A DNA stretch of 64,000 nt. It comes from Fimbriimonas sp. Lineage in GTDB: Bacteria; Armatimonadota; Fimbriimonadia; Fimbriimonadales; Fimbriimonadaceae. The notes below the pieces were generated by a model. The model worked only from the letters and a program-made list of their open reading frames with translations, was not told where the DNA came from and did no database searches. The DNA is taken from assembly GCA_031292555.1 (NCBI GenBank), contig JARLGV010000072.1, positions 1 through 64,000 on the forward strand, given 5' to 3'. Shown here piece after piece: positions 6,331 to 34,482 of this stretch. A program made the position numbers and the translations under genes. The stretch's first letter is position 1. Each line of letters opens with the position of its first letter.

Positions 6331-6341
6331 TTCGAGTTGGA

Positions 6342-14862: not shown

Positions 14863-17800
14863 CTAGTGCGTGACCGCCAGCGCGGTATTCCCCCCGGACG
14901 TGCCGTCGACAGCATAGATGCCGATATTAAGATTCGAGGAGACTGCCTTTGTCGTGATCGGGAACGTCGCGGACGACGAGCCGGCCGGGATCAGGACAGT
15001 TGCGGGAACCCCGACGATGCTCGGAACGCCTACCGACAACGATACGAGCCAGCCTCCAACCGGCGCCGGCGACTTCAGCGTGATCGTGCCCGTCGAACCA
15101 CTTCCCCCGGTGACGCTAGCCGGGCTTACCGACAAGCCCGTGATTTGGTCCCCTGCGAAAGTAACACTGGCCGACTGGCCAGAATTGCCGTCGGACGCAT
15201 AGACACCCGAAGTGTAAGTTCCGGACGTGATTTTCGTCGAGATTGTGAAGTTGACGCTTGTAGCGCCGGCCGGAACAACGACCGTAGCAGGCACGGTGAC
15301 CAAACTGGGAATGCCGACCGTGATCCCCACCGTCCAGCCACCATAGGGCGCAGCTGACCTGAGCGTGATCGTCCCCGTCGTCGAGCTTCCCGCACCGATC
15401 GACGACGGATTGACCGTCAAACTCGCGATTGCATCTCCGACAACTGTCAGCGCTGCCGATTGGGCCGAGTTGCCGTCTGTCGCATAGATCCCCGAGGTAT
15501 AGGTAGCCGATGTTTCCTTCGCCGAAATTGTGAAATTGACGTTGATCGATCCCGCCGGAACGACGACCGTTGCCGGAACCGAGACAATGCTAGGAACACC
15601 GGCCGATAGGTTGACCGTCCAGCCGCCATACGGGGCAGCTGACCGTAGCGTAATCGTTCCTGTAGAGGTTCCACCTCCTCCAATCGACGTGGGGTTCAGG
15701 GTTAGACTCACTATCTGATCGCCGACTATAGTCAACGACGCACTCTGCGCAGAGTTGGCATCCGTCGCGTAGATGCCGGACGTATACGTCGTGGACGTCT
15801 GCTTTGCGGATATCGGGAACGTGACGCTTGTCGCGCCAGCCGGCACAGTTACTGTCGACGGGAGGTTGACGATGCTTGGAACTCCTGCCGCCAAACGGAC
15901 GGCCCAGCCACCGGACGGCGCTGGACCGGCTAACGTGACCGTGCCAGTCGAACTCCCACCGCCACCGATCGTTGTAGGGTTCAGTGACAGTCCCGTCATG
16001 GAATCGCCGATTACGTTTAAGTTACCGCTGTGATAGATAACCGAATCGTGAGCGCTGATCAATGCGGACATCGCCGGGCTGTTGGGGCTCGTTGTCGTTA
16101 AGAACGTCGCTGACGTCGCTCCCGCAGGGACCGTGATCGAAGGCGGGACCGACACATAAGTCGGGCTGGTGCTCACAAGCGAAATCGTCCATCCACCAAC
16201 CGGAGCCGGTCCCCAGAGACTGACGGTTCCCGTCGACGAATTGCCCGCCACAACAGTTGGCGGACTGAACGTGACCGTCGCCAAAGCATAGGTAGATACA
16301 GTCAGAGTGGCGCTTTGGCTCGTGCCTTGGACAGACGCAGTAATGATATTGGTGAACGGTACTTCGTATAACTGTGATGTCGACACAGTGAACGTCGCGC
16401 TCGTGGCTCCAGCAGCAACGGTGACCGTAGCGGGGCAAGACACATAGGTAGGGTATTGGTTCGTCATGTTCACGACCATCCCACCCGTAGGCGCCGGGTT
16501 GCTAAGCGTCACGGTAGCCGTCGACGACGTCCCTCCGAGGATGGTGGATGGACTTAGCGTCAGAGACACGACCCGATATCCGACGATCGTCAGCGACGTG
16601 CTCTGGCTCGAGTTTCCGTCGGTGGCATAGACGCCCGAGGTGTACGAATTCCCGGTCTGAACGGCTGTTATCGTGAAGTTCGTGCTCGTGGCGCCGGCAG
16701 GAACCGTAACGGTTGCCGGAACACTCAAGATACTGGGCACACCGACCGAGAGGTTCACCGGCCAACCTCCGGTTGGGGCGGCCGACTTGAGTGTTACGGT
16801 GCCGGTCGAAGTTCCTCCGCCGATAATCGAAGTGGGATTCACCGAAACGCTCGCGATCGAATCACCGGTCACTGCAAGCGAGACGCTATGGTAGATCACC
16901 GGATCGTGGGCACTGATCAGGCAGTTCAGACTCGGACTGTTCGGCTGGACCGTGATTGTGAAGTTGGCCGTTGTAGCGCCGGCAGGAACCGTGACGGACG
17001 CCGGCAGTCCGACGAAGCTAGGGTTCCCGCTGAGAAGGTAAATCGTCCATCCTCCGGTAGGCGCGGCCGACCAGAGCGTGACCGTACCGGTCGACGTTCC
17101 CCCCGCCGCAATCGAAGTGGGATTCACCGTCACATACTCCAGAGCATACGTCGCGACGGTAAGCGTGGCATTCTGGCTGGAACCTGCAACGGTCGCCGTG
17201 ATCAGGTTCGTGAACGGAACCATATACATCTGCGGCGTCGAAACTGTAAACGTCGTGCTCGTCGCTCCGGCTGGCACCGTGCAGGTCGCCGGGACGGTCA
17301 CATAGGTCGGCCACTGATTAGCGATCGTCACGACCGTACCGCCAACCGGCGCGGGGCCGCTCAAAGTGACTGTCGCCGTCGAGGAGTTTCCACCGATGAT
17401 CGTCGAAGGATTGAGCGTCAAGGACGCGACCGTCGACGTTTGAACGATCAGAACGGCGGTTGCGTTTGCTCCTCCCGATGTCGCCGTGATGGTCGCGCTC
17501 GCGAAAGTCGTAGAGGGATTCGTCGAGATCGTGAACGTGGCGCTGGTCGCTCCCGACGGTACGGTGACGAAGGGCGGAACGACGGCCGACGGATCGCTGC
17601 TTATCAGGCTCACAACGTCGCCGCCCGTCGGGGCTGCCGAAGCCAGGGTCACCGTTGCCGTACTGGAAGAACCGCTAGCGACGACGTTCGGGTTCAGACT
17701 TAGCGACGTTGCTGCGACGGTGGATACTTCCGTTCCCAATGCATACACGCTATAGTCGTACGAGCCAACGTACACGGCGCCGTCGGGGCCAATTGCGGGA

Positions 17801-18960
17801 GACGAGAAAACCTGGCCACCGGTCGCGTAGGACCAGAGAACTTGGCCGTTGGACGGGTTGAGCGCGTAAACCTTTCCGTCGGTCGAGCCGACGTAAACTG
17901 TGCCGTCCGATCCAATGGCAGGAGACGAGTTGACCGAGCCACCCGTTTTGTATGTCCATTTTGTGGCCCCTGTCGATGGGTTTACGGCATACACGTAATC
18001 GTCCTGAGAACCGACGTACACCGTCCCATCCGGGCCGATCGCCGGCGAAGAGTTCACGGGACCGCCGGTCGTCAACATCCAGATCTGGTGGCCAGTCGAG
18101 GCGTTGACCGCATAAAGGTTGTCATCGGACGATCCCACGAACAGGGCGTTGTTGCCTCCCGCCACTCCGAAAGCCGGCGACGAGAATATCCCACCTCCTG
18201 CCGTAAAGGTCCAGCTAGCGGTGTGAGTCGTCGGGCTGATCGAGTATAGATTGTTGTCGAAAGACGCGATGTAGATCGCCCCGTCCGGGCCGACAGCCGG
18301 CGACGAAAAGAGTACATCACCGGTTTGGAAACTCCAATTCGGCTGGCCCGTGGATGGGTTGATCGCGTAGAGGTAGCTATCGGTGGAACCGACATAGACC
18401 GTTCCATCGGACCCGATCGCGGGAGACGAGAAGACGGCGCCGCCCGTCTGGTAGCTCCAATTGGGGATGTGGGTAGTCGGATTGATCGAATAGACGCTTT
18501 TGTCGTTTGAGCCGAAGTAGATCGTACCGTCAGATCCGATCGCTGGAGACGAAGCGATTGCCGCGAGGGCCCCGTAGCGCCAATTCAAAGCACCGGTCGA
18601 GGAGTTGATCGAATACAGGTAGCCATCGTTGGACCCAATATAGAGTGTCCCATCCGCCGCGATCGCCGGTGACGACTCGACCAGATAGGAAGTAGCATAG
18701 CTCCACCGCAAGACGCCGTTCGATCCACCGTTGGCCGCGAGGCCGGTATTGAGCAGATTTCCATGGAATTTAGGCCAAGCTGCGCCCAACTGCAGTTGGG
18801 GACGCCGGTTGACCTTTGCCGTCTCGCTCCGATCGATACTTGGCCGACTACGCAATGCAAAGGCCGATGGCGCACCGGCGTTGCTTTGCGGTCCTTGAGC
18901 GACCGATAAGGCAGCCATAGCGCAAATTGGAAAAAGCAAGGCGAAACGAGGACGTATCAT
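14863..18960 (-). CDS. Secreted PQQ-type beta-propeller with ten Ig-like modules (W-type)
   Basis: 1365 residues, signal peptide at the N-terminus (FALLFPICAMAALSVAQ). After AAWPKFHGNLLNTG come eight propeller blades with SSPAIGxDGTxYVGSxDxxxYAL cores, the most regular of the three. Ten Ig-like modules follow, most of a distinct subtype with PTGGW and a YATDxNSxQSASL end. Modules 2-3-4 and 5-6-7 correspond one to one (NQWPTYV/NQYPTYV, HDPVIYHS/HDSVIYHS, YTSGVYAT/YTSGIYAT), so a three-module block was duplicated; modules 7-10 then repeat one type. No anchor is present. It is the furthest diverged stalk of the three tandem paralogues, consistent with internal recombination rather than simple gene copying. 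Confidence 0.85.
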   Translation of the reverse strand: MIRPRFALLFPICAMAALSVAQGPQSNAGAPSAFALRSRPSIDRSETAKVNRRPQLQLGAAWPKFHGNLLNTGLAANGGSNGVLRWSYATSYLVESSPAIAADGTLYIGSNDGYLYSINSSTGALNWRYGALAAIASSPAIGSDGTIYFGSNDKSVYSINPTTHIPNWSYQTGGAVFSSPAIGSDGTVYVGSTDSYLYAINPSTGQPNWSFQTGDVLFSSPAVGPDGAIYIASFDNNLYSISPTTHTASWTFTAGGGIFSSPAFGVAGGNNALFVGSSDDNLYAVNASTGHQIWMLTTGGPVNSSPAIGPDGTVYVGSQDDYVYAVNPSTGATKWTYKTGGSVNSSPAIGSDGTVYVGSTDGKVYALNPSNGQVLWSYATGGQVFSSPAIGPDGAVYVGSYDYSVYALGTEVSTVAATSLSLNPNVVASGSSSTATVTLASAAPTGGDVVSLISSDPSAVVPPFVTVPSGATSATFTISTNPSTTFASATITATSGGANATAVLIVQTSTVASLTLNPSTIIGGNSSTATVTLSGPAPVGGTVVTIANQWPTYVTVPATCTVPAGATSTTFTVSTPQMYMVPFTNLITATVAGSSQNATLTVATYALEYVTVNPTSIAAGGTSTGTVTLWSAAPTGGWTIYLLSGNPSFVGLPASVTVPAGATTANFTITVQPNSPSLNCLISAHDPVIYHSVSLAVTGDSIASVSVNPTSIIGGGTSTGTVTLKSAAPTGGWPVNLSVGVPSILSVPATVTVPAGATSTNFTITAVQTGNSYTSGVYATDGNSSQSTSLTIVGYRVVSLTLSPSTILGGTSSTATVTLSNPAPTGGMVVNMTNQYPTYVSCPATVTVAAGATSATFTVSTSQLYEVPFTNIITASVQGTSQSATLTVSTYALATVTFSPPTVVAGNSSTGTVSLWGPAPVGGWTISLVSTSPTYVSVPPSITVPAGATSATFLTTTSPNSPAMSALISAHDSVIYHSGNLNVIGDSMTGLSLNPTTIGGGGSSTGTVTLAGPAPSGGWAVRLAAGVPSIVNLPSTVTVPAGATSVTFPISAKQTSTTYTSGIYATDANSAQSASLTIVGDQIVSLTLNPTSIGGGGTSTGTITLRSAAPYGGWTVNLSAGVPSIVSVPATVVVPAGSINVNFTISAKETSATYTSGIYATDGNSAQSAALTVVGDAIASLTVNPSSIGAGSSTTGTITLRSAAPYGGWTVGITVGIPSLVTVPATVVVPAGATSVNFTISTKITSGTYTSGVYASDGNSGQSASVTFAGDQITGLSVSPASVTGGSGSTGTITLKSPAPVGGWLVSLSVGVPSIVGVPATVLIPAGSSSATFPITTKAVSSNLNIGIYAVDGTSGGNTALAVTH

Positions 18961-19025
18961 GGTTCAAAAAGGCGAAAGATTGCGATCGGACCATCCATTT
19001 TACAATAGATCCTCAGAGTTCAGTG

Positions 19026-19035
19026 TAACCGGTTA
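19026..19035. promoter_or_regulatory. Palindrome upstream of fucosidase, LacI-type operator candidate
   Basis: TAACCGGTTA is a perfect 10-bp palindrome with a central CG, the shape of many LacI/GalR-family operators. It lies 151 bp before the fucosidase start and 66 bp before the divergent PQQ/Ig gene. No LacI-family gene is in the window, so the assignment is tentative. Confidence 0.25.
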
Positions 19036-19185
19036 AATGGATTGCGCGGCCGACACGATATTGCATTGCTGAACCGCACCTATCAGTTTAGTTCGTTTGC
19101 CCTATGCCTGGTCCGTTTCAAATCCGCCACTGGCACACCTCGGGCTCGGTACCACCGTCGTCGCATCGACCGTATACTGACGACC

Positions 19186-20655
19186 ATGCTGCTTTCCCTC
19201 ACCATTGCCGGCGTCTTGGGAGCCTCGACGGGAACTCCCGGCGTGCAGCCTCCTTCACCATTCGGTTCTCTGCCCTCCCCCCGGCAGATCGCCCATGCAC
19301 ATCTGGAAACCTATGCATTCCTGCACTTTTCGCCGAACACATTCACCGATCGTGAGTGGGGCAATGGCGACGAGGACCCCAATGTGTTCAATCCGACCCG
19401 GTTCGATCCCGATCAAATCGTCGCCGCTCTCAAAGCGGCAGGCATGGAGGGCGCAATCTTGACCTGCAAACACCACGACGGGTTCTGCCTTTGGCCCACA
19501 AAGACGACTGAGCACAGCATTGCATCAAGCAGTTGGCGCGGGGGCCACGGCGATGTGGTCAAGGAGATCTCCGATGCGTGCAAGAGGCATGGCCTGAAGT
19601 TTGGCGTTTATCTGTCTCCGTGGGACCGGAACAACGCGCATTATGGAAAGCCTGAATACGTGTCCATTTACCGAGAGCAGCTCCGCGAATTGCTCACCCA
19701 ATACGGATCGATCTTCGAGGTCTGGCACGACGGGGCGAACGGCGGCAGCGGATACTACGGAGGAGCACGGGAAACGAGATCGATCGACCGCAAAACCTAT
19801 TACGGATGGCCGCAAACCTGGGAACTCGTTCGGAAACTCCAGCCGGGAGCCTGTATCTTCAGCGACATCGGTCCAGACCTCCGGTGGGTCGGAAACGAAA
19901 GCGGCTATGCCGCCGACACCTCCTGGTCAACGTACGATCCAGTCGGGGAACAAAACGACGCCCCTGCGCCCGGATATGTCAAGTCGGAGCTAGGCGAAAC
20001 CGGTACCCGAGGCGGAAGGCACTGGTTGCCGGCTGAGTGCGATGTGTCGATCCGTCCCGGTTGGTTCTGGCACTCTTCGGAAGACTCGAAGGTCAAGTCG
20101 GTCGATCAACTTACCGAACTCTACTTCAAGTCGGTAGGTAGGGGAGCATCCTTCTTGCTGAACGTCCCGCCAAACCGCGAGGGACGCATTAGCGATCCGG
20201 ATGTCGAAACACTTAAGGAGTTCGGCCACCGAATACGTGCGACGTTCGAGCACAATCTTGTATCGGGTGCTTCCCTCTCCGCCTCCAACACACGAGGAAA
20301 TGACAGCCGGTTCCGAGTTGAGAATCTTATCTCGAACGACTCCAAGAACTACTGGGCGACAGACGATTCTGTCATGACGCCGACCATCGAAATCCAATTC
20401 AGACAGGTGAAGACGTTCGACGTGATACGACTGCGGGAGGCTATCCAACTCGGTCAACGAGTCGAAGCTTTCGCAGTTGACGTTTGGAAAGATGGCGAAT
20501 GGAAAGAGGCTGCCGCCGCCACGAGTGTAGGAAGTTGCCGGCTAATCCGCCTGGACGAACCAGTAACCACTGATCGCGTTAGGCTCCGGATCACTCGGTC
20601 CCCTGTTTGTCCTGCGCTGAACGGGTTTGGGTTATTCCTATTGGCAAAGAAGTAA
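19186..20655 (+). CDS. Secreted alpha-L-fucosidase-like glycoside hydrolase (GH29)
   Basis: 489 residues from ATG 19186, where a signal-peptide-like stretch begins (LLSLTIAGVLGAS); the frame is open to 19042 but those codons are unlikely to be used. GH29 hallmarks: FLHFSPNTFTDREWG, CKHHDGFCLW (substrate-binding His pair) and EVWHDGANG, whose Asp182 corresponds to the family's catalytic nucleophile. LLNVPPNREG closes the barrel. Residues about 360-489 form a beta-rich C-terminal domain of F5/8 type C (discoidin) character (NYWATDD, FDVIRLRE, RVRLRI), probably carbohydrate-binding. The enzyme should release terminal L-fucose from exported glycans or plant polysaccharide. It stands alone, divergent from the PQQ/Ig gene. 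Confidence 0.9.
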   Translation: MLLSLTIAGVLGASTGTPGVQPPSPFGSLPSPRQIAHAHLETYAFLHFSPNTFTDREWGNGDEDPNVFNPTRFDPDQIVAALKAAGMEGAILTCKHHDGFCLWPTKTTEHSIASSSWRGGHGDVVKEISDACKRHGLKFGVYLSPWDRNNAHYGKPEYVSIYREQLRELLTQYGSIFEVWHDGANGGSGYYGGARETRSIDRKTYYGWPQTWELVRKLQPGACIFSDIGPDLRWVGNESGYAADTSWSTYDPVGEQNDAPAPGYVKSELGETGTRGGRHWLPAECDVSIRPGWFWHSSEDSKVKSVDQLTELYFKSVGRGASFLLNVPPNREGRISDPDVETLKEFGHRIRATFEHNLVSGASLSASNTRGNDSRFRVENLISNDSKNYWATDDSVMTPTIEIQFRQVKTFDVIRLREAIQLGQRVEAFAVDVWKDGEWKEAAAATSVGSCRLIRLDEPVTTDRVRLRITRSPVCPALNGFGLFLLAKK

Positions 20656-20704
20656 GCGCTGTTGGCGCGGCTTAACCGCTCCAAGCTAGTTGAGCAACGT
20701 CAAT

Positions 20705-20757
20705 CCTAGAATAATTGCTAGGTCATTCAGAAAACGGCATCGAATCGGTTAGATTCG
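20705..20757 (+). promoter_or_regulatory. Two short inverted repeats before the unknown gene
   Basis: CCTAG-N8-CTAGG (20705-20722) and CGAATC-N5-GATTCG (20741-20757) stand in tandem 60-110 bp before the start at 20816. They are candidate binding sites for a dimeric regulator. This is pattern only; no regulator is identified. Confidence 0.3.
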
Positions 20758-20815
20758 CTGATCCGGGAACGTTGAGTCTCTTGTCCACCCGCTGCGTGGT
20801 ACATGGAGGTCATCG

Positions 20816-21505
20816 ATGCCATCTTCGGATACGCCTAGCATTAACGTAATCGCCCTTGCTTCGGACGACGACCTATGGGTCGTTCAAACCGATCTGAGCG
20901 GACTTCGCACTGTACTGGAGGACCCTGCCGGGTTCGTCAGAACTCATGTCTCGATTAACGGTGAGCCGGGGAATCTCGTGCAGCCGTTCGTCATCGTCTT
21001 TCAGGAGATTCCCGCTCGCAAAGGAGGGCCCGATGTGCTGATTCAGGGAATCAACCACACCGCCATGTTGTCGGTAAAGTTCTCCGAGGCGCTCGAAGCC
21101 GAGGACGACGGCGTGCCGATTCATCCGGCAGACCAAGTGCATGCGGTGTTGCGGCACGGAAACGCGGTCTACAGCCATTTGGAGATGGCCGGCATGGATA
21201 GAACGCAAGTTGCCGCTTCGATCGTCAAGTCCATTACCTCGCTCCCTCGCCACTTCGAATCGCTGAACGGTCTGGCGCAAACGCACGCCGGCGCTTCGGT
21301 TGAGGCAAGTAAAAAGCTTCGATTCACTCACAATCCGGCTGCAAAGCCGCAGTTCGTCTATCAGGGCGCGGTTAACCCCCCCGCAGCCCTTGCATCGATC
21401 ACGCCAGGGGGCGCCGATCAAGCGTGTACTATGTCCACCGGTGACGCAAACGACGACGGGCAGGTCGTCGTAAACGGCGTAGTCATCAAGACCTACGTCC
21501 AGTAG
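20816..21505 (+). CDS. Unknown 229-residue protein convergent with the CHAT gene
   Basis: I do not recognise the family. ATG 20816 is preceded by GGAGG (about 20804-20808). The first 110 residues look like a compact alpha/beta domain (DLWVVQTDLSGLRTVL, QPFVIVFQEIP). The middle is helical (ASIVKSITSLPRHFESLNGL). The last 70 residues are Ala/Pro/Gly-rich and probably flexible, ending in a segment with the only cysteine (DQACTMSTGDANDDG) and VVVNGVVIKTYVQ. There is no signal peptide or membrane segment. The gene faces the CHAT protease gene across an 83-bp gap with a shared hairpin. A globular part plus flexible tail beside a protease gene makes it a candidate substrate or cargo, but that is speculation. 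Confidence 0.7.
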   Translation: MPSSDTPSINVIALASDDDLWVVQTDLSGLRTVLEDPAGFVRTHVSINGEPGNLVQPFVIVFQEIPARKGGPDVLIQGINHTAMLSVKFSEALEAEDDGVPIHPADQVHAVLRHGNAVYSHLEMAGMDRTQVAASIVKSITSLPRHFESLNGLAQTHAGASVEASKKLRFTHNPAAKPQFVYQGAVNPPAALASITPGGADQACTMSTGDANDDGQVVVNGVVIKTYVQ

Positions 21506-21530
21506 AACTGACAAAGAGGGATGGACCGAG

Positions 21531-21564
21531 GGCTCCGGCGGCAAATGGAGAGGACGCCGGAGCC
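21531..21564. terminator. Bidirectional terminator-like hairpin
   Basis: GGCTCCGGCG (21531-21540) pairs perfectly with CGCCGGAGCC (21555-21564) around a 14-base loop, between the convergent unknown gene and the CHAT gene. There is no long T-run on either side. Confidence 0.5.
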
Positions 21565-21588
21565 AAATATCTCGGCTTCGAATCGCGG

Positions 21589-24500
21589 TCAATTCGTAAT
21601 CGACGCCACCAGAGAACGCCAGGACGTCCTCTTGTGCTGAGCCACCAGATCGTCCATCAAGTCGGCATGGCGTTTCGTGAACTGACCAAGAGCCACACGA
21701 ACCTTGTCAGCGTCCCTCGTGGCGATTTCCCGATTGAGCTTGCTGGCGGCGAGAAAGCACATTGCGGCCGCTTCTATCTGTCCCGCGTCATCGTTTAGGT
21801 TCGCCAGGAAGGTCAGTGACCAGCTTAGGGCACGGTAACGGTGTCCCTCTAGAGATAGCTTCATCAATTCGAGGGCCGACCTCCGCGCCTTCCTTACGTC
21901 GCCTAGCTGCTCATGCAAAGCAGAAAGGCTCTGGTAGACGAACGGCGTGAGGTGGCGCTCTCGACTGATCACGACGGCCTTCTCAGCTTCCTCAGACCAG
22001 AATCGCGCCTTATCCACATCGCCTAACCTCATGCTGATCTGTGCACGTTGGGCCAGGCAGGTCGCGATCAGGCCCTGATTGTTGACCTTCTCGCCGATCT
22101 CCAGCGCCTGCGCGAGGTAACGCTGACCTGTTTCGATCTGTCCAAGCAGCACGGCTTCCCAAGAGAGATCGGTCAAGGCATCCGCGCACCCCTCGACATC
22201 GCCGATTGATTCGCACAGTTCGATCCGACGTTGCCAGACCTCAAAGCACTTCGGCATATTCTTTTGGCATGCGGCAAGGGCCCCGTCGAGTCCACAGATC
22301 CGACTCGCAAGGCCAGGATCATCGAGTGCGTCGGCGGCCGCATATCCGGCCCTTGCCAACCGCTCGAAATCGGCGAACATGCATGACTCGAAGTACAAGC
22401 GCCCCAGGCCGGTAAACAGCCGCCTTACTAGGCCGTGCAGTTTGCCGTCAACGGCGTAACGGGCAGCAGCACGCAGGTTGCCCGTATCTGCCCAGAGAAG
22501 GGACGTCCCTTCGGTCCACCTGCCTTCCTTCATAAAGTGCCCGATCTCATCGGCAATGCGGCAGTACCGTTCGCAATGGCGGAAGGCGCACGATTCGCGC
22601 TCATCGGCACGTGGACCCCCAAGTGGGAGTTGGCTGATGTATTCCCGCACGGTATCGAGCAACTTGTAGCGCGTGCTGTCAAAGTGGATCTGCAATTGGA
22701 CTATGGAGTGGTCTCGCAACACGCTCAGTCCGTCCAGCAAGTCCACGCGAGACATGCCGCACACTTCGGCCGCATCCTGTGAACTGAACGATCCAACGAA
22801 CAGACTCAGCTTCTCAAGGAGACTCCTCTCATCGTCTCCCAACAGTCGCCACGAGTCGGCAACGACTCGCTGAATGTTCGCATGGCGATCCTTGGGGCCC
22901 CCCTTCCTCTTGAGGACCTCCAGCGGCCGTGTGCGTACTTGCTCGAGCAGGTCTCCTAATCCGATGTGCTTGAGCCGTCCGGCTGCGAGAACTAAGGCCA
23001 ACGGGACTCCCTCGAGTTCGCTGCAAAGCTCGAAGACATGCGCTCGGTTCTTCGCGTCGATGGAGAACTCGTTCACCGAATGCCCGGCCGCCTCTGCGAA
23101 GAGTTCCATGCTGTCGCATTGTTGGGTTGCCTTCTTTCCCAGTTTCATGGGGCTCAGGCGATATTCGAATTCCTGCTCCAATCCCAACACGATCCGGCTG
23201 GTGACGAGGACCTGGATGTTTGGCGCCTTCTTGACCAGCCGGTCGACCGTGTCTGCCGACCGAATCAAGTGTTCGAAGCAATCGAGATAGAGCAAAATTC
23301 TCTTCGGACCCAACAATGACGCAAGTGCCGCTTCCGCGTCATCGGAGTCCATCCCCGCAATCGGCGCGCCGACCGCTTCTCCGATAGCGGCTATGAGGTC
23401 AAGGCTATTCTCCAATCGATCGCATTCAACCATCCAGACACCATCCGGATAGTCCTTTAGCCCACCCAAGGCGACCTTCTTGGCAAGGCGTGTCTTGCCC
23501 ATTCCTCCCATGCCGGTTACCGTGATCAAGCGCTGGCGCTTTACGAGGAGTCGCTCCGATATGGCCGAAATATCTGAAGCCCGCCCGATGAATGGGCGGT
23601 CGTCAACCGGGATATTGTGCGGCTCGCGAGGTTCGTCTACTACCGATGCCACGCCGAAGTCGATGGGTTCTGCGCCCTGAAAGAGAACCGGAATTACCCA
23701 ATCATTCCCGAATCCTGAGATCGCGAGCCGGCCTTGCTGAACCGCAGATTCGACCGTCAATCCTGCTCCCAGCGATGCGTAAAAGGCGCGCGAGAAATGC
23801 CCGGCCGCTCCGTCATGGATCGGCCCTTGCATCGCGACGACTGCCTGCAGCCCTGCCTCGATCAAGCTTCCGCCGAGCCCACAGGACGACGCGCCCGTCC
23901 AACAGCCTGACAGAACCGCCAGCTTAACCCCCGACTCACTGACCCACCTCGCCAGCACGTCACCGTACAGAAGAGCATCACTGCCCCGCTCGCCAGCCTC
24001 GAGCCCCAGAACGCAACCGCTTGCTTGTCGTTCGCCGTGCCCTACGAAGTGAAGAATGTCCGGCTTCCACTGCCCCAAGCTCCGCTCGAATGAGGACGGA
24101 GTTGCATAGCCGATCTCTTTGCATTCGATACTTCCGCATTCCGGCGCCTCCAACGCAGACACTACTCCTGCAACTTCAATCTCGATACCGGGAAGGTGCG
24201 GAAACCGTTCGGTCGACGGATTTGCCCACACGACAAGCACCCTAATCCTGTCTCGGGTGTGGAAAACGGCTCCCGGCGCATCGATCGAACGGTAGATCTG
24301 GACACCGGGATGAAGTGCCAGGAAGCCCCCCGCGTCACCGAATTCGTGATCGAGCCGACAGGATTCCCAGGGGAGCTTTCGGAGTTCGGGGTTGGCGCGG
24401 ATGCCAATGCGCAGCGAGTGATTGCGAAGGTGCGGGAGGATTTCGGCGATCGCGTCCTCGGAAAAGGCGCATCGGCACAACTCGATACCAATCGAAAGAA

Positions 24501-24708
24501 GCTCCCGTCCCGCGCAGCAATCTGGCGAGGCAATCTGTGCGAGTCCCTCTTCGATGAGCAACCAATCGGGACGGCGCTCGGATAGGAAGGATCGGGTTTG
24601 GCCGTCGATGGTCTGGAACACCAAGCTGGATCGAATGCTGTCGCCGATTCGATCGAGTTCTAGATAGAATGCTGCACCAGGATTGTTTTTGATTCGATTT
24701 GCGCCCAT
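21589..24708 (-). CDS. CHAT protease - NB-ARC ATPase - TPR protein
   Basis: 1039 residues, cytosolic. Residues about 85-350 are a CHAT caspase-like domain with the catalytic pair His224 (ILHFVGHGE) and Cys269 (LAVLSGCWTG). The domain is followed by an NB-ARC/STAND ATPase with Walker A GMGGMGKT (399-406), Walker B ILLYLDCFEHL and a VLVTSR sensor. From about 680 to the end lie helical TPR-like repeats. In this architecture the repeats sense a ligand, the ATPase oligomerises and the protease is switched on. It is the last gene of a cassette with an anti-sigma-like protein 21 bp upstream and a sigma-like factor before that. This suggests that proteolysis controls transcription. All catalytic residues appear intact. 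Confidence 0.9.
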   Translation of the reverse strand: MGANRIKNNPGAAFYLELDRIGDSIRSSLVFQTIDGQTRSFLSERRPDWLLIEEGLAQIASPDCCAGRELLSIGIELCRCAFSEDAIAEILPHLRNHSLRIGIRANPELRKLPWESCRLDHEFGDAGGFLALHPGVQIYRSIDAPGAVFHTRDRIRVLVVWANPSTERFPHLPGIEIEVAGVVSALEAPECGSIECKEIGYATPSSFERSLGQWKPDILHFVGHGERQASGCVLGLEAGERGSDALLYGDVLARWVSESGVKLAVLSGCWTGASSCGLGGSLIEAGLQAVVAMQGPIHDGAAGHFSRAFYASLGAGLTVESAVQQGRLAISGFGNDWVIPVLFQGAEPIDFGVASVVDEPREPHNIPVDDRPFIGRASDISAISERLLVKRQRLITVTGMGGMGKTRLAKKVALGGLKDYPDGVWMVECDRLENSLDLIAAIGEAVGAPIAGMDSDDAEAALASLLGPKRILLYLDCFEHLIRSADTVDRLVKKAPNIQVLVTSRIVLGLEQEFEYRLSPMKLGKKATQQCDSMELFAEAAGHSVNEFSIDAKNRAHVFELCSELEGVPLALVLAAGRLKHIGLGDLLEQVRTRPLEVLKRKGGPKDRHANIQRVVADSWRLLGDDERSLLEKLSLFVGSFSSQDAAEVCGMSRVDLLDGLSVLRDHSIVQLQIHFDSTRYKLLDTVREYISQLPLGGPRADERESCAFRHCERYCRIADEIGHFMKEGRWTEGTSLLWADTGNLRAAARYAVDGKLHGLVRRLFTGLGRLYFESCMFADFERLARAGYAAADALDDPGLASRICGLDGALAACQKNMPKCFEVWQRRIELCESIGDVEGCADALTDLSWEAVLLGQIETGQRYLAQALEIGEKVNNQGLIATCLAQRAQISMRLGDVDKARFWSEEAEKAVVISRERHLTPFVYQSLSALHEQLGDVRKARRSALELMKLSLEGHRYRALSWSLTFLANLNDDAGQIEAAAMCFLAASKLNREIATRDADKVRVALGQFTKRHADLMDDLVAQHKRTSWRSLVASITN

Positions 24709-24729
24709 AGACCTATGCGGCGCTCGAAT

Positions 24730-25869
24730 TTAGACCACTGACGGACCGATTCGTTTTAGGAGGAGCGCACCCCCGAAAGGACCTTCCATGGCGGTCTTCG
24801 GCAACGCTGCCGTAAGCACCTGCGGTCTTTCTATCTCTTTCTTTATATCAAACAGACGGAGTAACTGCCAGCTATTTGGAGTCACGGCGAGCGACAATTC
24901 CCACTTTCCTCCGGAATGAGTCTCTTCGAAGTAGCCGACCAGTTCCAAAGCTCCATCCCTCACCACTGGCATCGCCAGATAAGGTGCCCTTCGTGGACCG
25001 CTTTCCACTACGATTTGGCCTATTTCGCACTGCACCGGCCAACCCACAACGCTCGCGGAGAGCGAACCGACCTGCACAGGGCCCGATTCTATGTGTAGGA
25101 AGGCGCCTAACCCCGGCAAGAGCACTCTCGCCCTTCCCCTGACAAGTTCTCCGTCTGTCAAGGCAAGTGTTCTGCCATGCATCGAAAAGGAAACGAAGAT
25201 CGATGTGGCCTCGCAATCCGGTGTTACGATGGCAGATATCTCGAGGTCTCCGTTTGCTAGCACACTGCCAGTGCACTCCATTATCGGGTTTGCTGAGTCT
25301 TGGGTCCAAGCCGATTCAAGTTCGATCCTTGTAGATTCGCTGACAATCTCCGATGCGCTTCGACGGTAGCCAAAGCCCAGTTTGAGCAGCCCATCGGCGG
25401 CTCGCCCCCTGATCGGCTGGGTGAAGAGAGATCGCCAAATCGTTTTGAACGCGTTGAGGCCCTTCGCCCCATCGCCCCCCATCGCTGCCAGGGATGGCCA
25501 TTTCGTCGGAGGAGCGCCCTTCAGATGTTTGGACAAAAGGTGAACATGATCGTCAATGATGGAGAGCCAGATGTTTCTGACAGGGTCCTCGTCGATCCCC
25601 GCGCTTAGTAGCTCGTGATATGGGGTGCGTTTCAGTCGCTCGACGTGAGCCGAGGCTTGGACCAAACCTTGTCTCAGCCCAAGATCCACGATAGCTTCCG
25701 ATTCGAGTCTCTCGGCATCGTTGGGAGAAAGTACTCCTGCCACGTATCCGACGACCTCGTGGAGACCGATCGGCGGCATGCTTGGCGGCACTGGAGCCGA
25801 TCGCAGTATCGACTCAAGCAGTTCGACGGCGTTACGACTAAGTTGTTCTGGGTTTCTATCGATTTCCAT
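24730..25869 (-). CDS. Anti-sigma-like soluble protein between sigma factor and CHAT genes
   Basis: 379 residues from ATG 25869; seven more codons are open upstream. The gene overlaps the sigma-like gene by 14 bp, indicating translational coupling. Residues about 35-75 (HEVVGYVAGVLSPNDAERLES...DLGLRQGL) resemble the start of many anti-sigma factors (YxxGxLSPxxxxxxExHL) but lack the zinc-binding His/Cys residues. The centre is helical. From about 195 a beta-rich half follows (ISAIVTPDCEATSIFVSF, ARVLLPGLGAFLHIESG, GKWELSLAV). There is no membrane segment. Its position and N-terminal pattern suggest that it holds the sigma factor and may be the protein cut or displaced by the CHAT protease; neither is shown by sequence alone. 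Similar middle genes of unknown function are known between sigma and CHAT genes in other bacteria. Confidence 0.65.
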   Translation of the reverse strand: MEIDRNPEQLSRNAVELLESILRSAPVPPSMPPIGLHEVVGYVAGVLSPNDAERLESEAIVDLGLRQGLVQASAHVERLKRTPYHELLSAGIDEDPVRNIWLSIIDDHVHLLSKHLKGAPPTKWPSLAAMGGDGAKGLNAFKTIWRSLFTQPIRGRAADGLLKLGFGYRRSASEIVSESTRIELESAWTQDSANPIMECTGSVLANGDLEISAIVTPDCEATSIFVSFSMHGRTLALTDGELVRGRARVLLPGLGAFLHIESGPVQVGSLSASVVGWPVQCEIGQIVVESGPRRAPYLAMPVVRDGALELVGYFEETHSGGKWELSLAVTPNSWQLLRLFDIKKEIERPQVLTAALPKTAMEGPFGGALLLKRIGPSVV

Positions 25870-27028
25870 CGCTACGCTCCGTCTTTGCAATGTGGTCGGC
25901 CATTCGCCTAAATAGCCTGCCGTTACTGAGTGCGACGTTCAGCATGCCCATTGTAATCGTGTAGCCAATTTCGTTCGCTGCTCCCGCCGTACGGTCATAT
26001 ATGTCCCGATGTGGCAGTTCGTCATGAGCGTAGTATTGGAAAATCAGACGATTCCAAAGGCCCGGGTCTCGAAGCATCTCTCGCCCCCCCGAAGCGAAGT
26101 CGAAATCGCTATTCAAACGTCTCACAATTTCAATAAACGGGAATCGCTCGGCGCATCTATCAAAAACTGCGATCAAATCGCCCTTTGTCAGTCGATCGGC
26201 CATTCGTGAAGCAATTTGTTCCAAGAGGAGCGCGTTCAAGTACCTCAACCTAATCGCGTCCAAGGCGTCCTTGGACCAGTTCATTGCTGTCAATGGATCG
26301 TGTGCCTGCTCTAATGGACCGACACTGTCAACCAAGTGCTGATACAGTTTCTGGTTGTCCCAATTCAGTTCGGTATAGGCCAGGGAGCGCAGAACCGAAT
26401 GGCACCCGATCCACCGATCCAAGTCCTTGCGCTCCAAGATCGGTTCCTCACTCGATCCAGCGTTGATAAGGTGAATGACCGATTGCCAGGGCAATCGGTC
26501 CACAAGAAGCAGTTTCGCTGCGAGGAGTCTACGTCTGCGCTCTCGAGGAGTCATGTCCCTCGGGACTCCAAGAAACACTTCGTCGGCCAATCGATAGAGC
26601 GATTCACGGTCTTCGATCATTTCAATGAGTTCGTCGACGGTATTAACCTCGTCGGCAGCAACATCCACATCTTCAAGGCCGTCGATCACTCCGCCAGGAA
26701 TGCTTGAGCGGATCGCGTCTACCGTGCATCGCGAACAAGTTGTCCTCAGCCATCGCCACCAAGCTCCCGGAGATTCGAATGCCACGCTCTGACTGGAACG
26801 CCAAACTCGCTGGAATACCTCTTGAACAATATCTTCGCGATCTGTATGCGCCAGCCGATGCCCGGAAAGCTGGGCCAGCAAAAACGGGCGACTGCGCTCG
26901 AGCAGTGCGGAAAACCCCTTGCTCCGAACTTGATCGTCTGAACTTGATAACTGTCGAAGAGCCTCTTTGAGCGATTCATGAGGCGAAGACACGGTACAGA
27001 GTTTATCCGAGGTAAGCAAGGCGTGCAA
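25856..27028 (-). CDS. Sigma-70 (ECF-like) factor with long C-terminal extension
   Basis: 390 residues, about twice the usual ECF length. Residues about 35-110 match sigma region 2: REDIVQEVFQRVW (64-76) for core binding and WRWLRTTCSRCTVDAIR (91-107) for the -10 region. A clear region 4 helix-turn-helix is not evident. Instead there is an acidic linker (DVDVAADEVNTVDELIEMIED), a basic helix (PRERRRRLLAAKLLL) and a long helical tail of unknown role. The start is a TTG without an obvious ribosome site; GTG at residue 13 is an alternative. First gene of the cassette with the anti-sigma-like protein and the CHAT protease. Lack of a usual region 4 leaves open that it binds RNA polymerase but recognises promoters differently. 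Confidence 0.7.
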   Translation of the reverse strand: MHALLTSDKLCTVSSPHESLKEALRQLSSSDDQVRSKGFSALLERSRPFLLAQLSGHRLAHTDREDIVQEVFQRVWRSSQSVAFESPGAWWRWLRTTCSRCTVDAIRSSIPGGVIDGLEDVDVAADEVNTVDELIEMIEDRESLYRLADEVFLGVPRDMTPRERRRRLLAAKLLLVDRLPWQSVIHLINAGSSEEPILERKDLDRWIGCHSVLRSLAYTELNWDNQKLYQHLVDSVGPLEQAHDPLTAMNWSKDALDAIRLRYLNALLLEQIASRMADRLTKGDLIAVFDRCAERFPFIEIVRRLNSDFDFASGGREMLRDPGLWNRLIFQYYAHDELPHRDIYDRTAGAANEIGYTITMGMLNVALSNGRLFRRMADHIAKTERSDGNR

Positions 27029-27170
27029 TAAGGGGATTCAAGGACCAGAGTCTAGGATATTTGGCAAGCAGCGGGAAGAATGCTGAGAAATCTACGGAAC
27101 CAAGCAACCTTAACAGGACTGACTTGACGGCTAGGACTCGTAATACTTACCGACTGACTGGCTTGACACT

Positions 27171-27198
27171 ATTTTACGTCTATCGCTATTTACGCCAA
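27171..27198 (-). promoter_or_regulatory. Candidate promoter of the sigma/CHAT cassette
   Basis: On the minus strand TTGGCG and TAAAAT are separated by 16 bases, fitting housekeeping -35/-10 boxes, about 143 bp before the TTG start at 27028. A near-repeat (GCGTAAATAG / ACGTAAAATAG) overlaps it. Identified by eye only. Confidence 0.3.
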
Positions 27199-27241
27199 GA
27201 GCCCTAATAGTCCTAAACGGCCAAATCAGTGAACCATCGAC

Positions 27242-27907
27242 CTAGACTCTTCTGATCTTGAAGTTGAGCGATCCGCTCGGGCCAGTCATTGAACCTTCCG
27301 AACTCTCCAAAGCCCCATTTTTCAGATTAAAGGTCGCCACCGACGAAAAATACGATTGCGCCACGGCTTGACGACCTCCCTTTGCCGGCGGCACGCCGAA
27401 CGCAAGTGCCAGCTTGATCGTTGCCTTGGCAGCAGTGGCATCCACGAGAGACCCACTTCCCTTCATATGGACGAAGCCATCGTAGACCTTATCGGGCACT
27501 TCGAACGAGCCGCCAACCGGGATAGCTTCAGTTGGAAGCAACCAACTCAAGACGGGGATAACGAACGATGCGTCTTGACCACCGAATGAGTAGTCGGACG
27601 GGAACCCTGTTTCTGGAAACTGGTAAGTTGCCACACCAAATGCGCGTCGCTTGGGCAACTCCTGATCGCCGATACGACCGCGCAGATTGACGAACGAATT
27701 CGTGATTTGGGTTGTCTTGGATTCCGCCACCACCCGATCGGCGCTAAATCGCATCTCATAGTCATAATGCGCCTTACCAGCCTCCCCCTCGGAATCAACC
27801 GAAACCGCGTAGACCTGAACCTCCTTCCTTTTGAAGGCGCGATGAATTGCGATTGAAGGTGTCGCGGTCTGAAACGCGATAGCAACCAGGCAGAGGACCA
27901 TCTCCAA
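27242..27907 (-). CDS. Secreted hypothetical protein
   Basis: 221 residues. A short hydrophobic start (MVLCLVAIAFQTATPSIA) looks like a signal peptide. The mature part is beta-rich with no cysteine (KAHYDYEMRFSADRV, GVATYQFPETGFPSDYS, GGSFEVPDKVYDG, SGSLNFKIRRV), like small periplasmic or lipid-binding beta proteins. I do not recognise the family. Start TTG 27907 or ATG 27901; GGAG sits between them, too close for the ATG. It is upstream-divergent from rsgA and probably monocistronic. Confidence 0.65.
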   Translation of the reverse strand: MEMVLCLVAIAFQTATPSIAIHRAFKRKEVQVYAVSVDSEGEAGKAHYDYEMRFSADRVVAESKTTQITNSFVNLRGRIGDQELPKRRAFGVATYQFPETGFPSDYSFGGQDASFVIPVLSWLLPTEAIPVGGSFEVPDKVYDGFVHMKGSGSLVDATAAKATIKLALAFGVPPAKGGRQAVAQSYFSSVATFNLKNGALESSEGSMTGPSGSLNFKIRRV

Positions 27908-28016
27908 TGATCTTGACGGGTTCCAACCGGGATTCGTTTTGTTCCAATCACAACACGTGGTAAAGTATTCGTCACGGCGCGATGGCGCCCAAATCAGAAG
28001 CAGGAGGTAAGTGAGA

Positions 28017-28079
28017 ATGATGAGAACCCAACTAGAAGCCGCCCTTACGCCTGCCTGCGATACATCGCACGGATACTGA
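28017..28079 (+). CDS. Possible 20-residue small protein or leader peptide
   Basis: AGGAGGT at 28002-28008, the best ribosome-binding sequence in the region, lies eight bases before ATG 28017. It opens a 20-codon frame (MMRTQLEAALTPACDTSHGY) and a TGA. It is located 167 bp upstream of rsgA in the 338-bp divergent gap (27908-28245), which otherwise holds only presumed promoters. It might be a leader peptide or an independent small protein, or the site may be fortuitous. Confidence 0.35.
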   Translation: MMRTQLEAALTPACDTSHGY

Positions 28080-28245
28080 TCAACTCGCCTATTTCCCTGG
28101 CGTCAGGCTTTCACCGCATATCGGATCGATTCCGCATTCCGGTGAATGGAATCAGGACCAAACACGTACGTTCGACGGTCAGGCGTTTCTCTCGCCTCTA
28201 AGCGCCAGGCTATGCCTGCGCGCACCGCCCGTTCCGAACCAAGCG

Positions 28246-29337
28246 ATGCAAAAAGAGCAACAAGTATTTCTGAAAGAACAACTATCGATTCTGGACACCA
28301 ATGAGCGGCTGAAGCTGTACAAAAGGGCGTCCACACTACGCAAGAACCAGCAGTCGAGGCAGAAGCCTCGGGACGATGAGCGATTGAGTCGGGGCAAGTC
28401 CCTCGACGACTTTGTTCTTCAGATCCTGCTTCAGGAAACTGGCGATGTCCCTGTCGACAGAACGAGCGGCAATGGAACCGTGATTTGGCTTGGTCCCAAA
28501 TCCTGCTCGGTTCGTTCCGCAGACGAACGGGTGGAATGTTCGATACCGCGATCCATCCACGTGGCGATCGGAGATCGCGTTTCCTTTGGACCACGGGGCG
28601 ACGAGTATTCGATCGTCGCCGTTATGCCGCGTTCCACCGTCCTGTCACGGCCCGATGTCGACAACGGCCGTATCGAGCGAGTCATTGCCGCCAACGTAGA
28701 TGTCGTCGTTGTAGTCGTCTCGGTGATCGCGCCGCCGTTGCACCCACGCCTTATCGATCGCTACATGATTGCTATACAGCGCGGAGGGGCAAAGATGCTG
28801 CTTGCCATCAACAAGGTCGATTTGCTCGACGGACAAACTCGGCCGGTCGAATTGGCGAAACTGGAGCCCTACCGAGGAATCGTGGCAATGACGCTATGTT
28901 CGACAACGGATGGCACTGGCATCGATGAACTCCGAACGATGGTTACCGGGCAGACATGTGCATTTGTTGGTCACTCTGGCGTGGGCAAATCGTCACTCAT
29001 TAACGCTTTCGACCCCAACCTGCAACTGCTGACCCGCTCGGTATCGGTCGGCTATGGACGCGGAGCACATACTACGACGGCATCAACGCTTCTCCGCTTG
29101 GCCGACGGCACGCAAGTCATCGATACGCCGGGCGTACGCAGCTTTGGCCTCTGGGACATCGGCAGATCGGAACTCGCATGGTATTTCCCTGAGTTCGAGG
29201 ATTACCAATCAGACTGCAAATTCCGTAACTGCACCCACAGCCACGAGCCGGCCTGCGGAGTCAAATCAGCAGTGGCAAGAGGGTTAATCTCGAGCCCACG
29301 CTACGAAGCATATATGAGGATTCTAACCTTAGCTTAG
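28246..29337 (+). CDS. rsgA: Ribosome small subunit-dependent GTPase RsgA
   Basis: 363 residues. The circularly permuted GTPase order G4-G1-G3 is visible: NKVDLL (G4), then GHSGVGKSSLIN (P-loop), then DTPG (G3). A GYGRGAHTT switch I stretch follows the P-loop. The N-terminal OB-fold domain (about 75-130, GTVIWLGPKSCSVR) and C-terminal zinc motif CxxxxCxHxxxxxC (CKFRNCTHSHEPAC) complete the family. The protein checks late maturation of the 30S subunit and releases with GTP hydrolysis. An N-terminal extension of about 70 polar residues before the OB-fold is longer than in many homologues. ATG 28246 has no good ribosome site, so the true start could be internal. Confidence 0.95.
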   Translation: MQKEQQVFLKEQLSILDTNERLKLYKRASTLRKNQQSRQKPRDDERLSRGKSLDDFVLQILLQETGDVPVDRTSGNGTVIWLGPKSCSVRSADERVECSIPRSIHVAIGDRVSFGPRGDEYSIVAVMPRSTVLSRPDVDNGRIERVIAANVDVVVVVVSVIAPPLHPRLIDRYMIAIQRGGAKMLLAINKVDLLDGQTRPVELAKLEPYRGIVAMTLCSTTDGTGIDELRTMVTGQTCAFVGHSGVGKSSLINAFDPNLQLLTRSVSVGYGRGAHTTTASTLLRLADGTQVIDTPGVRSFGLWDIGRSELAWYFPEFEDYQSDCKFRNCTHSHEPACGVKSAVARGLISSPRYEAYMRILTLA

Positions 29338-29385
29338 GGAGTGGAGGTGTAAATTCCCCTTGGAAGTCGTGTAGGAGATCAAACG

Positions 29386-29826
29386 ATGAAGAAACTCGCC
29401 CTAGCAATATTTGTGGCTCTCATCGCATCGATCGCGGTCGCCCAAGGACCCGGTGGAATGCGCGGTGGCGGCCAACGCATGGACCCCAAGGCTCGTCTCG
29501 AAAAGATGACGAAGGACTTGGGATTGAACGCGTCGCAGTCGAAGAAGGTCGGAGACCTTCAGACCAAGATGATGGACTCGATGAAGAAACTTCGATCTGC
29601 ACCAGGAGACTTCAAGTCGAAGTTCCCCCAGATGAAGAAGATCCGTGACGAATTCGGCGCGGGCATGAAGAAGATCCTGACCCCGGCCCAGTTTGCCAAG
29701 TTTGACAAAATGGAGAAGGAGCGAATGTCTCGCATGAGAGGCATGGGGGGTCCCGGCGGACGAGGCCCCGGCGGACCCGGCGGACGAGGACCTGGCGGAC
29801 CTCCTCCAGGAAAGGGCGGAGCGTAG
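29386..29826 (+). CDS. Small exported helical protein with Gly/Pro-rich tail (Spy/CpxP-like)
   Basis: 146 residues. A signal peptide (MKKLALAIFVALIASIAVAQ) precedes a helical, Lys/Met-rich core (LGLNASQSKKVGDLQTKMM...ILTPAQFAKFDKMEKERM) whose two L-x-x-x-Q segments recall Spy/CpxP/LTXXQ periplasmic proteins. The last 30 residues are low-complexity GGRGPGGP. Role in periplasmic protein or metal stress is a guess. A GGAG site precedes ATG 29386 and a strong terminator follows, so it is a single-gene unit 48 bp after rsgA. Confidence 0.75.
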   Translation: MKKLALAIFVALIASIAVAQGPGGMRGGGQRMDPKARLEKMTKDLGLNASQSKKVGDLQTKMMDSMKKLRSAPGDFKSKFPQMKKIRDEFGAGMKKILTPAQFAKFDKMEKERMSRMRGMGGPGGRGPGGPGGRGPGGPPPGKGGA

Positions 29827-29844
29827 GCTCTCCGTGGTCGTGAA

Positions 29845-29878
29845 ACGAGGGCCCCTGAAAAGGGGCCCTCGTTTTTTT
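29845..29878 (+). terminator. Intrinsic terminator
   Basis: A perfect 12-bp stem (ACGAGGGCCCCT / AGGGGCCCTCGT) with a GAAA tetraloop is followed by TTTTTTT. It ends the small exported protein gene; it stands before the 3' end of convergent surE and has only three A bases on the other side. Confidence 0.92.
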
Positions 29879-29893
29879 GTGTGTCGGCTTGCG

Positions 29894-30670
29894 CTAAACA
29901 GTCGCGTCAACCCTGCGCATCGACTGTTCGAGTTCGCTGCGGAGGGCCTGGTCCGTCCAATCCAGACTAATCGGGCTGATACTCACGAACCCGTCGCTCA
30001 CCGCTTGCACATCGGTGCCGGGTTGGTTTGTCTCCATAACGACAACCCCGCCTTGCCAGTAATAGGGTCGACCCCATGGGTCCTGCCGTACCTCGACGCG
30101 ATCCTGATAAACCCTTTGCCCCATCTGGGTGACGCGGTGACCGCGAATCTCTACGAATTCGATGCTGGGGATGTTTACATTCAGAAACGACAGGGGCCTA
30201 AGCGGCGCTTCGACTAGCATGCTCCAGTTCTCGCGGAGCCAGGTTGCGCCAGTTTCGTAGTGGATAGGGGCCCCGCTTACGAACAAAGCCATGCTCAGCG
30301 CAATGCTTCGAATGCCATTGATCGTGCCTTCCATCGCTCCGGCTACCGTACCGCTGTAGGTGATGTCGAATCCAAGGTTGGGACCGTTGTTCACTCCGCT
30401 GAGCACCAGGTCGCAACCATCCGGCCAGGCAACCGTCAGACCGACGTTCACGCAATCGACCGGTAAGCCGTTTACCTCGTAGGCTTCGACTCCGTCCCAT
30501 TTATGCTCGGTGACTCTCAGGGGATCTCGCATCGTCATGGAGTGACCGCATGCCGACCGTTCTCGGTCCGGCGCAACAACCTTGACTTCTCCAAATCTAC
30601 GGGCCACTTCGACGAGCGAGATCAGTCCCTGAGCCCGGATCCCGTCATCGTTCGTAATCAGAATTCGCAT
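29894..30670 (-). CDS. surE: 5'/3'-nucleotidase SurE
   Basis: 258 residues, the usual size. The N-terminus MRILITNDDG supplies the two metal-binding aspartates (Asp8, Asp9). PDRERSACGHSMT, the acidic/Asn stretch LVLSGVNNGPNLGFD and SGTVAGAMEG form the rest of the active site. The enzyme removes phosphate from nucleoside monophosphates and is linked to survival under stress. It is convergent with the small exported protein and divergent (83 bp) from the cyclase/NB-ARC gene, with which it may share a promoter region. Confidence 0.95.
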   Translation of the reverse strand: MRILITNDDGIRAQGLISLVEVARRFGEVKVVAPDRERSACGHSMTMRDPLRVTEHKWDGVEAYEVNGLPVDCVNVGLTVAWPDGCDLVLSGVNNGPNLGFDITYSGTVAGAMEGTINGIRSIALSMALFVSGAPIHYETGATWLRENWSMLVEAPLRPLSFLNVNIPSIEFVEIRGHRVTQMGQRVYQDRVEVRQDPWGRPYYWQGGVVVMETNQPGTDVQAVSDGFVSISPISLDWTDQALRSELEQSMRRVDATV

Positions 30671-30753
30671 GTGGCCCCATAGCGTACCTATCGCCTTGTC
30701 CAGATACGATTTACATTGCCCGCTGGGCCGGAGCGGATAGACTAGAGACGGAT

Positions 30754-33366: not shown

Positions 33367-33398
33367 CCTGACGCCGCCGACTATCTCGCGCGCGACCG

Positions 33399-33596
33399 TT
33401 AGGAAGGCACGTGCTCGAATGGCTTTAGCATTCGGACATTCGTGAGGCAGAAGAAAAGGGTTTCTCCATCGTTCTTCTTGATTCGAATCCACTCAGAGTC
33501 CACTGCCTCCAAAAGGCCGACATCCTGCCGCTCGGTGTCTCCCTGTCTTGAGTACACGGTTATCTTCACTCCGATCAATACACTGGCTAGACTCAT
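33399..33596 (-). CDS. Small beta-barrel-like hypothetical protein
   Basis: 65 residues. The alternation of short strands (VLIGVKITVYS, VGLLEAVDSEWIRIKK, ETLFFCLTNVRMLKP) resembles an Sm-like or SH3-like barrel (as in LSM or YlmC/PRC-type proteins). The gene follows a purine-rich ribosome site (GGGGCAGG) on the minus strand. It is convergent with the cyclase/NB-ARC gene (32-bp gap) and divergent from the VanZ-like gene. Function unknown; RNA or membrane-lipid binding is only conceivable from the fold guess. Confidence 0.55.
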   Translation of the reverse strand: MSLASVLIGVKITVYSRQGDTERQDVGLLEAVDSEWIRIKKNDGETLFFCLTNVRMLKPFEHVPS

Positions 33597-33674
33597 TCGT
33601 TTGTTACCTGCCCCATATTCTTACTGATTTCTGCCGTGCTTGTCGCGCACAGAAATAGGGAACGATCATAGCAC

Positions 33675-34472: not shown

Positions 34473-34482
34473 CATAGGTGAT

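Follow-up and report, generated by a model that had tools for sequence, protein, structure and literature searches.

A sigma factor, a predicted soluble anti-sigma factor and a CHAT-NB-ARC-TPR protein form a conserved cassette in Armatimonadota: a probable CRISPR-independent sigma switch

The window analysed here is a stretch of 64,000 nucleotides from Fimbriimonas sp. (assembly GCA_031292555.1, contig JARLGV010000072.1, positions 1 to 64,000). It carries three coupled minus-strand genes for a sigma-70-like factor, a soluble protein (termed the middle protein) and a CHAT-NB-ARC-TPR protein. A preliminary description of this DNA had proposed that they form a protease-released sigma switch. Our analysis shows that the functional unit is larger than the three genes and includes a convergent fourth gene, named ddLW from an N-terminal motif of its product, together with the promoter of that gene. 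The features of the unit are as follows.

25856..26992, minus strand: sigma-70-like factor, 378 aa, with a region 2 of the extracytoplasmic function (ECF) type at residues ~4-100 followed by three helical modules resembling helix-turn-helix (HTH) domains (Pfam, PDB profiles, AlphaFold2)
24730..25869, minus strand: middle protein, 379 aa, a predicted soluble anti-sigma factor (conserved partner gene in 20 loci)
25420..25848, minus strand: middle protein residues 8-150, helical anti-sigma-like domain lacking zinc ligands (AlphaFold2 and hhalign)
25294..25416, minus strand: middle protein residues 152-192, disordered linker with the candidate cleavage site R170|S171 (codon 25360-25362)
24736..25293, minus strand: middle protein residues 193-378, two FNIII/Ig-like beta domains (AlphaFold2, VIA-align)
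21589..24708, minus strand: CHAT-NB-ARC-TPR protein, 1039 aa, a predicted sensor protease (Pfam)
23719..24408, minus strand: CHAT protease domain, residues 101-330 (PF12770 and PDB profile)
20816..21505, plus strand: ddLW, 229 aa, soluble, predicted sigma output (recurrent neighbour)
20748..20773, plus strand: two-block ECF-type promoter of ddLW, GTTAGAT-N15-CGTT

The three minus-strand open reading frames (ORFs) are spaced as first described: the end of the sigma gene overlaps the start of the middle gene (ATG at 25869) by 14 bp, and 21 bp separate the middle gene from the CHAT gene. The longest ORF of the sigma gene starts at TTG 27028; comparison with the starts of relatives indicates that GTG 26992 is the likelier start. 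The preliminary description was right about these three genes and overlooked ddLW, its promoter and an alternative arrangement described below (form B). It had also stated that no CRISPR array or cas gene is present, and this agrees with our searches: no Cas1 gene was found in the 6.46-Mb genome, no CRISPR-like repeat array within window positions 15000-35000, and no cas gene was seen at the cassette locus, while Cas7-11 was not searched by profile. The CHAT-NB-ARC-TPR protein is the sole CHAT protein of the genome.

We searched 291 genomes of the window's phylum and found the sigma factor, as a full-length gene (about 350-430 aa in this family) or a clear fragment, in 25 of them; the organism names available for relatives point to Armatimonadota (Fimbriimonas, Chthonomonadia, Abditibacteriales). 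Sigma genes or fragments with sequence on their downstream side define 27 loci, other sigma genes being located at contig ends, and in every one of the 27 sigma stands beside one of two partners. In form A (20/27 loci) sigma is followed by the middle gene, and a CHAT-NB-ARC-TPR gene of the same subfamily is collinear in 16 loci, adjacent in another orientation in two (L045, L052) and elsewhere in the genome in two (L172 for L050, L173 for L053). In form B (7/27 loci) sigma is followed by a protein of 650-784 aa; Pfam analysis of four of the seven detected a STAND-type ATPase in all four, TPR in three and CHAT in none, and no CHAT gene was detectable in the form B genome G108. One or two changes of form suffice on the sigma tree, a number as low as this being reached in 0/500 shuffles. 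The same gene order recurs across divergent relatives, and the arrangement is thus not due to chance. Conservation of the neighbours was one of the checks by which the preliminary description would have been refuted, and the proposal came through it, with sigma and its partner kept together in divergent relatives and CHAT adjacent in 18/20 form A loci. That the three genes belong together is well supported. Phyla other than that of the window were covered solely by a pattern-based contig scan, which returned 12 relatives, all of them metagenome-assembled genomes labelled Armatimonadetes or kin (one 'Bacterium HR16') and mostly loci already found. No relatives were found in viral contigs or plasmids.

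The middle protein matched nothing in Pfam, NCBIfam, PADLOC, PHROG or PDB profile searches. An identity as DUF1822 was considered and found no support, as none of 19 middle proteins matched that family. In the AlphaFold2 model, residues 8-150 are helical (pLDDT mostly 70-95), residues 152-192 form a disordered linker between folded domains (pLDDT about 30) and the C-terminal half consists of two beta domains of the common FNIII/Ig-type fold (VIA-align Z ~6). Middle proteins share the N-terminal pattern LVRYxxGxL...E...VE.xL, which is typical of anti-sigma domains; their N-domains have no HxxxCxxC or CxxC zinc ligand motif, and no membrane segments were found. An N-terminus of this kind, anti-sigma-like and without zinc ligands, had been suggested before. 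Profile comparison by hhalign bears this out: the N-domain matched zinc anti-sigma domains (zf-HC2) from members of the same bacterial family (P 8×10−5, probability 61%) and, more strongly, the N-termini of the form B STAND proteins (P 5×10−7, probability 92%, and 95% for the clearest four), and 0/100 column shuffles reached either score. These comparisons support homology of the N-domain to known (class I, ASD) anti-sigma domains. In several form B loci the N-terminus of the STAND protein is homologous to that of the middle protein. As the N-domain is thus kept where CHAT and a separate middle gene are missing, form B offers the best argument that this domain, rather than the beta domains, would be the part that acts on sigma. 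A search with the whole middle model (Foldseek and VIA-align) listed only FNIII/Ig-like folds, matching the C-terminal half, and no anti-sigma or Csx30 fold, although the N-domain was barely tested by it.

The sigma factor carries a true ECF region 2. Pfam detected Sigma70_r2 only (E 8×10−5), the family profile aligned with solved ECF sigmas in region 2 and the linker behind it but no further (E 1.8×10−8), and region 2 of the AlphaFold2 model (pLDDT 86) superimposes on that of sigma-E with Z 11.1 and a root mean square deviation of 2.2 over 92 residues. The earlier statement that region 4 is not obvious is correct for the sequence, where Pfam found no match to it, and has to be modified for the model. 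The helix pattern there suggests three HTH-like modules after region 2 (~149-209, 241-282 and 310-376), and structural alignments to ECF sigmas cover residues 129-210, reaching into the first of them, so that region-4-like DNA-binding parts are probably present in an unusual, repeated form. Between region 2 and these modules, the stretch 101-122 has low model confidence. CHAT might cleave sigma itself, for example in this stretch, with the middle protein acting as chaperone or adaptor, and control by a protease in the absence of an anti-sigma factor has been proposed for ECF54 sigmas (PMC8999054). We regard this as very improbable, given the resemblance of the middle N-domain to anti-sigma domains and the occurrence of the same sigma architecture in form B, where CHAT is missing.

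In the third protein, Pfam identified CHAT (PF12770, E 5×10−24), NB-ARC (E 4×10−7) and TPR_12 (E 6×10−8), and the P-loop (Walker A) of NB-ARC is conserved among homologues. The intact dyad noted before, His224 and Cys269, was confirmed, and both residues are invariant in 18/18 divergent homologues. Asp299, a candidate S1 residue, is kept in 17/18; its equivalent in separase structures presumably contacts the Arg at P1, and cleavage after Arg would be consistent with this. The best solved relative of the CHAT domain is the SAVED-CHAT protein 8tl0 (E 8×10−25, PDB profile), and a protease fold is therefore supported. We predict from these sequence features that CHAT acts as a protease here. Two relatives differ in their CHAT genes. 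Locus L043 has two tandem CHAT-STAND-TPR genes (2517-5711 and 5915-9094) behind a single sigma-middle pair, with a middle protein shortened to 298 aa, and in the closest relative (L008, 8379-11513) the CHAT gene is split into three ORFs (597, 93 and 328 aa), reflecting decay or assembly errors.

A plausible target of this protease is the linker of the middle protein. The linker is divergent, and yet 14/14 non-redundant linkers contain R[GSA]. R[GS] occurs in 13/14 compared with 7.3 in shuffled linkers, and [AVFLTIYS]R[GSA], a pattern picked after viewing the alignment, in 13/14 compared with 6.4 expected from shuffled linkers (P<2×10−4), with no excess in two control regions. In the window, R170 is the candidate cleavage site. 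Judged from sequence and model, the disordered linker, the recurrent Arg-small site and the invariant CHAT dyad fit proteolytic release. They also speak against a purely conformational mechanism, in which the CHAT-NB-ARC-TPR protein would pull the middle protein off sigma and CHAT would serve as a docking or non-cleaving domain: mere docking needs no His-Cys dyad invariant in 18 divergent form A proteins. Form B suits this mechanism better, since a change of shape would suffice where the anti-sigma-like domain is fused to STAND and CHAT is missing. On balance we think that it is unlikely to explain form A.

The ddLW gene is convergent with the CHAT or STAND gene in most cases and a neighbour in at least 15 loci; its product matched nothing in Pfam, PHROGs or PDB profiles. 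It is present in 14/25 genomes with sigma and in 6/266 without (Fisher P 5×10−13, which is too optimistic because the test ignores shared ancestry). One row of the ddLW alignment, L052:9469-10164, was discarded as spurious, as it lies inside the CHAT gene on the other strand.

Upstream of ddLW, we found an exact GTTAGAT in 6/17 sigma-linked genes and in 1/298 control genes; with up to one mismatch the counts were 13/17 and 46/298, and the sites mostly lie 59-71 bp before the start. Once aligned, the sites showed a further block at constant spacing, giving GTTAGAT-N15-[CG]GTT, which is the layout of an ECF promoter. When scored with matrices from which the gene in question had been left out, 12/17 sigma-linked ddLW genes exceeded the 95% control level. 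The same level was exceeded in 3/19 sigma operons (L043, L052 and L053). The genome of the window has two exact full sites, one being the ddLW promoter and the other falling within an ORF encoded by the opposite strand. With so few sites, and a single occurrence in 298 control genes, GTTAGAT can be ruled out as a general promoter element. A search for a wider regulon in 14 genomes showed that the other exact sites were about as numerous as those of a reversed control pattern and had no gene family in common. On the simplest reading of these sequence data, ddLW is the principal or sole target of sigma. That this promoter serves ddLW is well supported, and sigma itself would be the factor recognising it.

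The promoter also bears on the idea that the cassette is a cell-death or defence module, in which CHAT cuts ddLW or other host proteins and sigma and the middle protein only regulate expression. STAND-CHAT proteins are often defence effectors. Moreover, ddLW genes are also located beside adenylate-cyclase-STAND-TPR genes in genomes without sigma, and the ddLW product may thus also interact with STAND-TPR sensors instead of acting only downstream of sigma. A two-block promoter in front of ddLW points, by contrast, to a sigma-controlled output. PADLOC had no match for sigma or the middle protein, its hits being limited to CHAT, TPR and ATPase models of a generic kind, and CHAT lies apart from the sigma-middle pair in two form A genomes. 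We consider a defence module an improbable explanation, somewhat more so than the conformational one.

Several observations were made on ddLW and its surroundings. Genome G121 has sigma and, remote from any sigma gene, a ddLW gene (L175, 7721-8674) that is preceded at -67 by the near-consensus GTTGGAT-N15-CGTTGA and is a possible distant sigma target. In lineages without ddLW, CHAT is followed by an apparently exported protein of 400-500 aa, several with a DDKS motif near the N-terminus (L012 5730-7145, L046 4300-5805, L047 5193-6617, L049 1440-2780, L059 3275-4495, L061 3867-5135 and L065 3773-5098), which is possibly an alternative output. About 4 kb from the cassette the window encodes a second STAND protein, an adenylate/guanylate cyclase-NB-ARC-TPR protein (30754-33366, plus strand), and this architecture also adjoins ddLW genes in other genomes (L177-L181). 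On the other side, a 1365-aa repeat protein (14863-18960, minus strand) with nine repeats of 285-288 bp and six more at 123-bp spacing is probably a surface protein.

Taken together, we consider it probable that the cassette is a CRISPR-independent, protease-released sigma switch with a STAND sensor. In the resting state, the anti-sigma-like domain at the N-terminus of the middle protein would hold the ECF-like sigma. A signal bound by the TPR part would then cause the STAND NTPase to change shape or oligomerise, as known STAND biology suggests, and so activate CHAT. By analogy with Csx30 and CalpT, CHAT would cut the middle protein in the disordered linker, probably after R170, and part the anti-sigma and beta domains; loss of the fragment would free sigma, which would transcribe the adjacent ddLW from the conserved GTTAGAT-N15-SGTT promoter. 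In form B the anti-sigma-like domain would be within the STAND protein itself, and no protease would be needed for that reason. Less likely than not is a further step, namely a one-gene sensor circuit in which STAND-TPR would lead through the CHAT cut and sigma to essentially only ddLW, with ddLW acting back on the sensor, and in which two wirings (proteolysis in form A, fusion in form B) would coexist in one lineage.

Conservation, the anti-sigma N-domain and the fit of linker and dyad speak for the earlier switch proposal; no homology of the middle protein to Csx30 was found, and the sigma factor described as lacking an obvious region 4 probably has region-4-like modules. Other points weigh against the switch. 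That the middle protein binds sigma and is cleaved is a prediction from sequence and models, and proteins of the CHAT type can be protease-inactive or act on different substrates. With a probability of 61%, the match to anti-sigma domains is weak by absolute standards, and the corresponding form B domain is clear in only 4/7 loci. R170 stays a candidate site because its pattern was chosen post hoc and neither of two less directed tests reached significance: an unconstrained search for motifs did no better on the linkers than on shuffles (information content 8.15 compared with 7.84±0.25), and stacking of a single column after realignment also brought an Arg together in shuffled linkers. Finally, the two-block promoter is absent from the sigma operon of the window itself.

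If the proposal is true, the relay of protease, anti-sigma factor and sigma described for CRISPR systems also occurs independently of them, triggered by an NLR-like STAND sensor, which would hint at the origin of the CRISPR versions. It is directly testable through the predicted cut site, a promoter with essentially one genomic target, and form B as a natural protease-free control.

In type III-E CRISPR systems, Csx29, Csx30 and CASP-sigma combine a CHAT protease, a sigma inhibitor and an ECF-like sigma, and cleavage is proposed to free sigma (PMC10028731). The cassette likewise encodes a CHAT protease, a predicted inhibitor and an ECF-like sigma together, whereas its genome lacks Cas1, no cas gene was seen at the locus, and a STAND NTPase with TPR replaces the RNA-guided trigger. 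The cut in Csx30 falls within a C-terminal-domain loop, whereas an interdomain linker holds the candidate site here, and the middle protein has no sequence similarity to any PDB chain, a profile search of PDB sequences having returned no Csx30 relative. In CalpL/CalpT/CalpS of type III CRISPR, cutting of the anti-sigma factor leads to release of an ECF sigma (PMC11417357). Protease, anti-sigma factor (predicted here) and ECF sigma are common to both, but theirs is a Lon protease with a SAVED domain responding to cA4, in contrast to CHAT with NB-ARC-TPR. Since no CRISPR components were seen and no Csx30 relative is detectable, the cassette is not a member of either relay. Neighbourhoods of EACC2-caspases with ECF sigma and DUF1822 genes, for which activation by an autopeptidase was proposed (PMC8195603), are CRISPR-independent and have a caspase-like gene, an ECF sigma and a third protein side by side, as is the case here; the middle proteins differ in having an anti-sigma-like domain and no DUF1822, and NB-ARC-TPR is fused to CHAT. 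The ECF54 group also has CHAT proteins in its genetic context, read as proteolytic control (review PMC8999054), which was proposed to work without the anti-sigma factor that we predict. With class I anti-sigma factors (ASD/ZAS) the middle protein shares a helical N-domain, the LxxYxxGxL...E...VE...L pattern and a gene adjoining sigma. It differs from them in being soluble and without zinc ligands, and in what the N-domain is joined to, namely beta domains or, in form B, a STAND NTPase. The general idea is already in print (PMC8195603, PMC8999054); new here are the identification of an anti-sigma-like domain, a candidate cut site, a protease-free sister form, and a promoter with its target.
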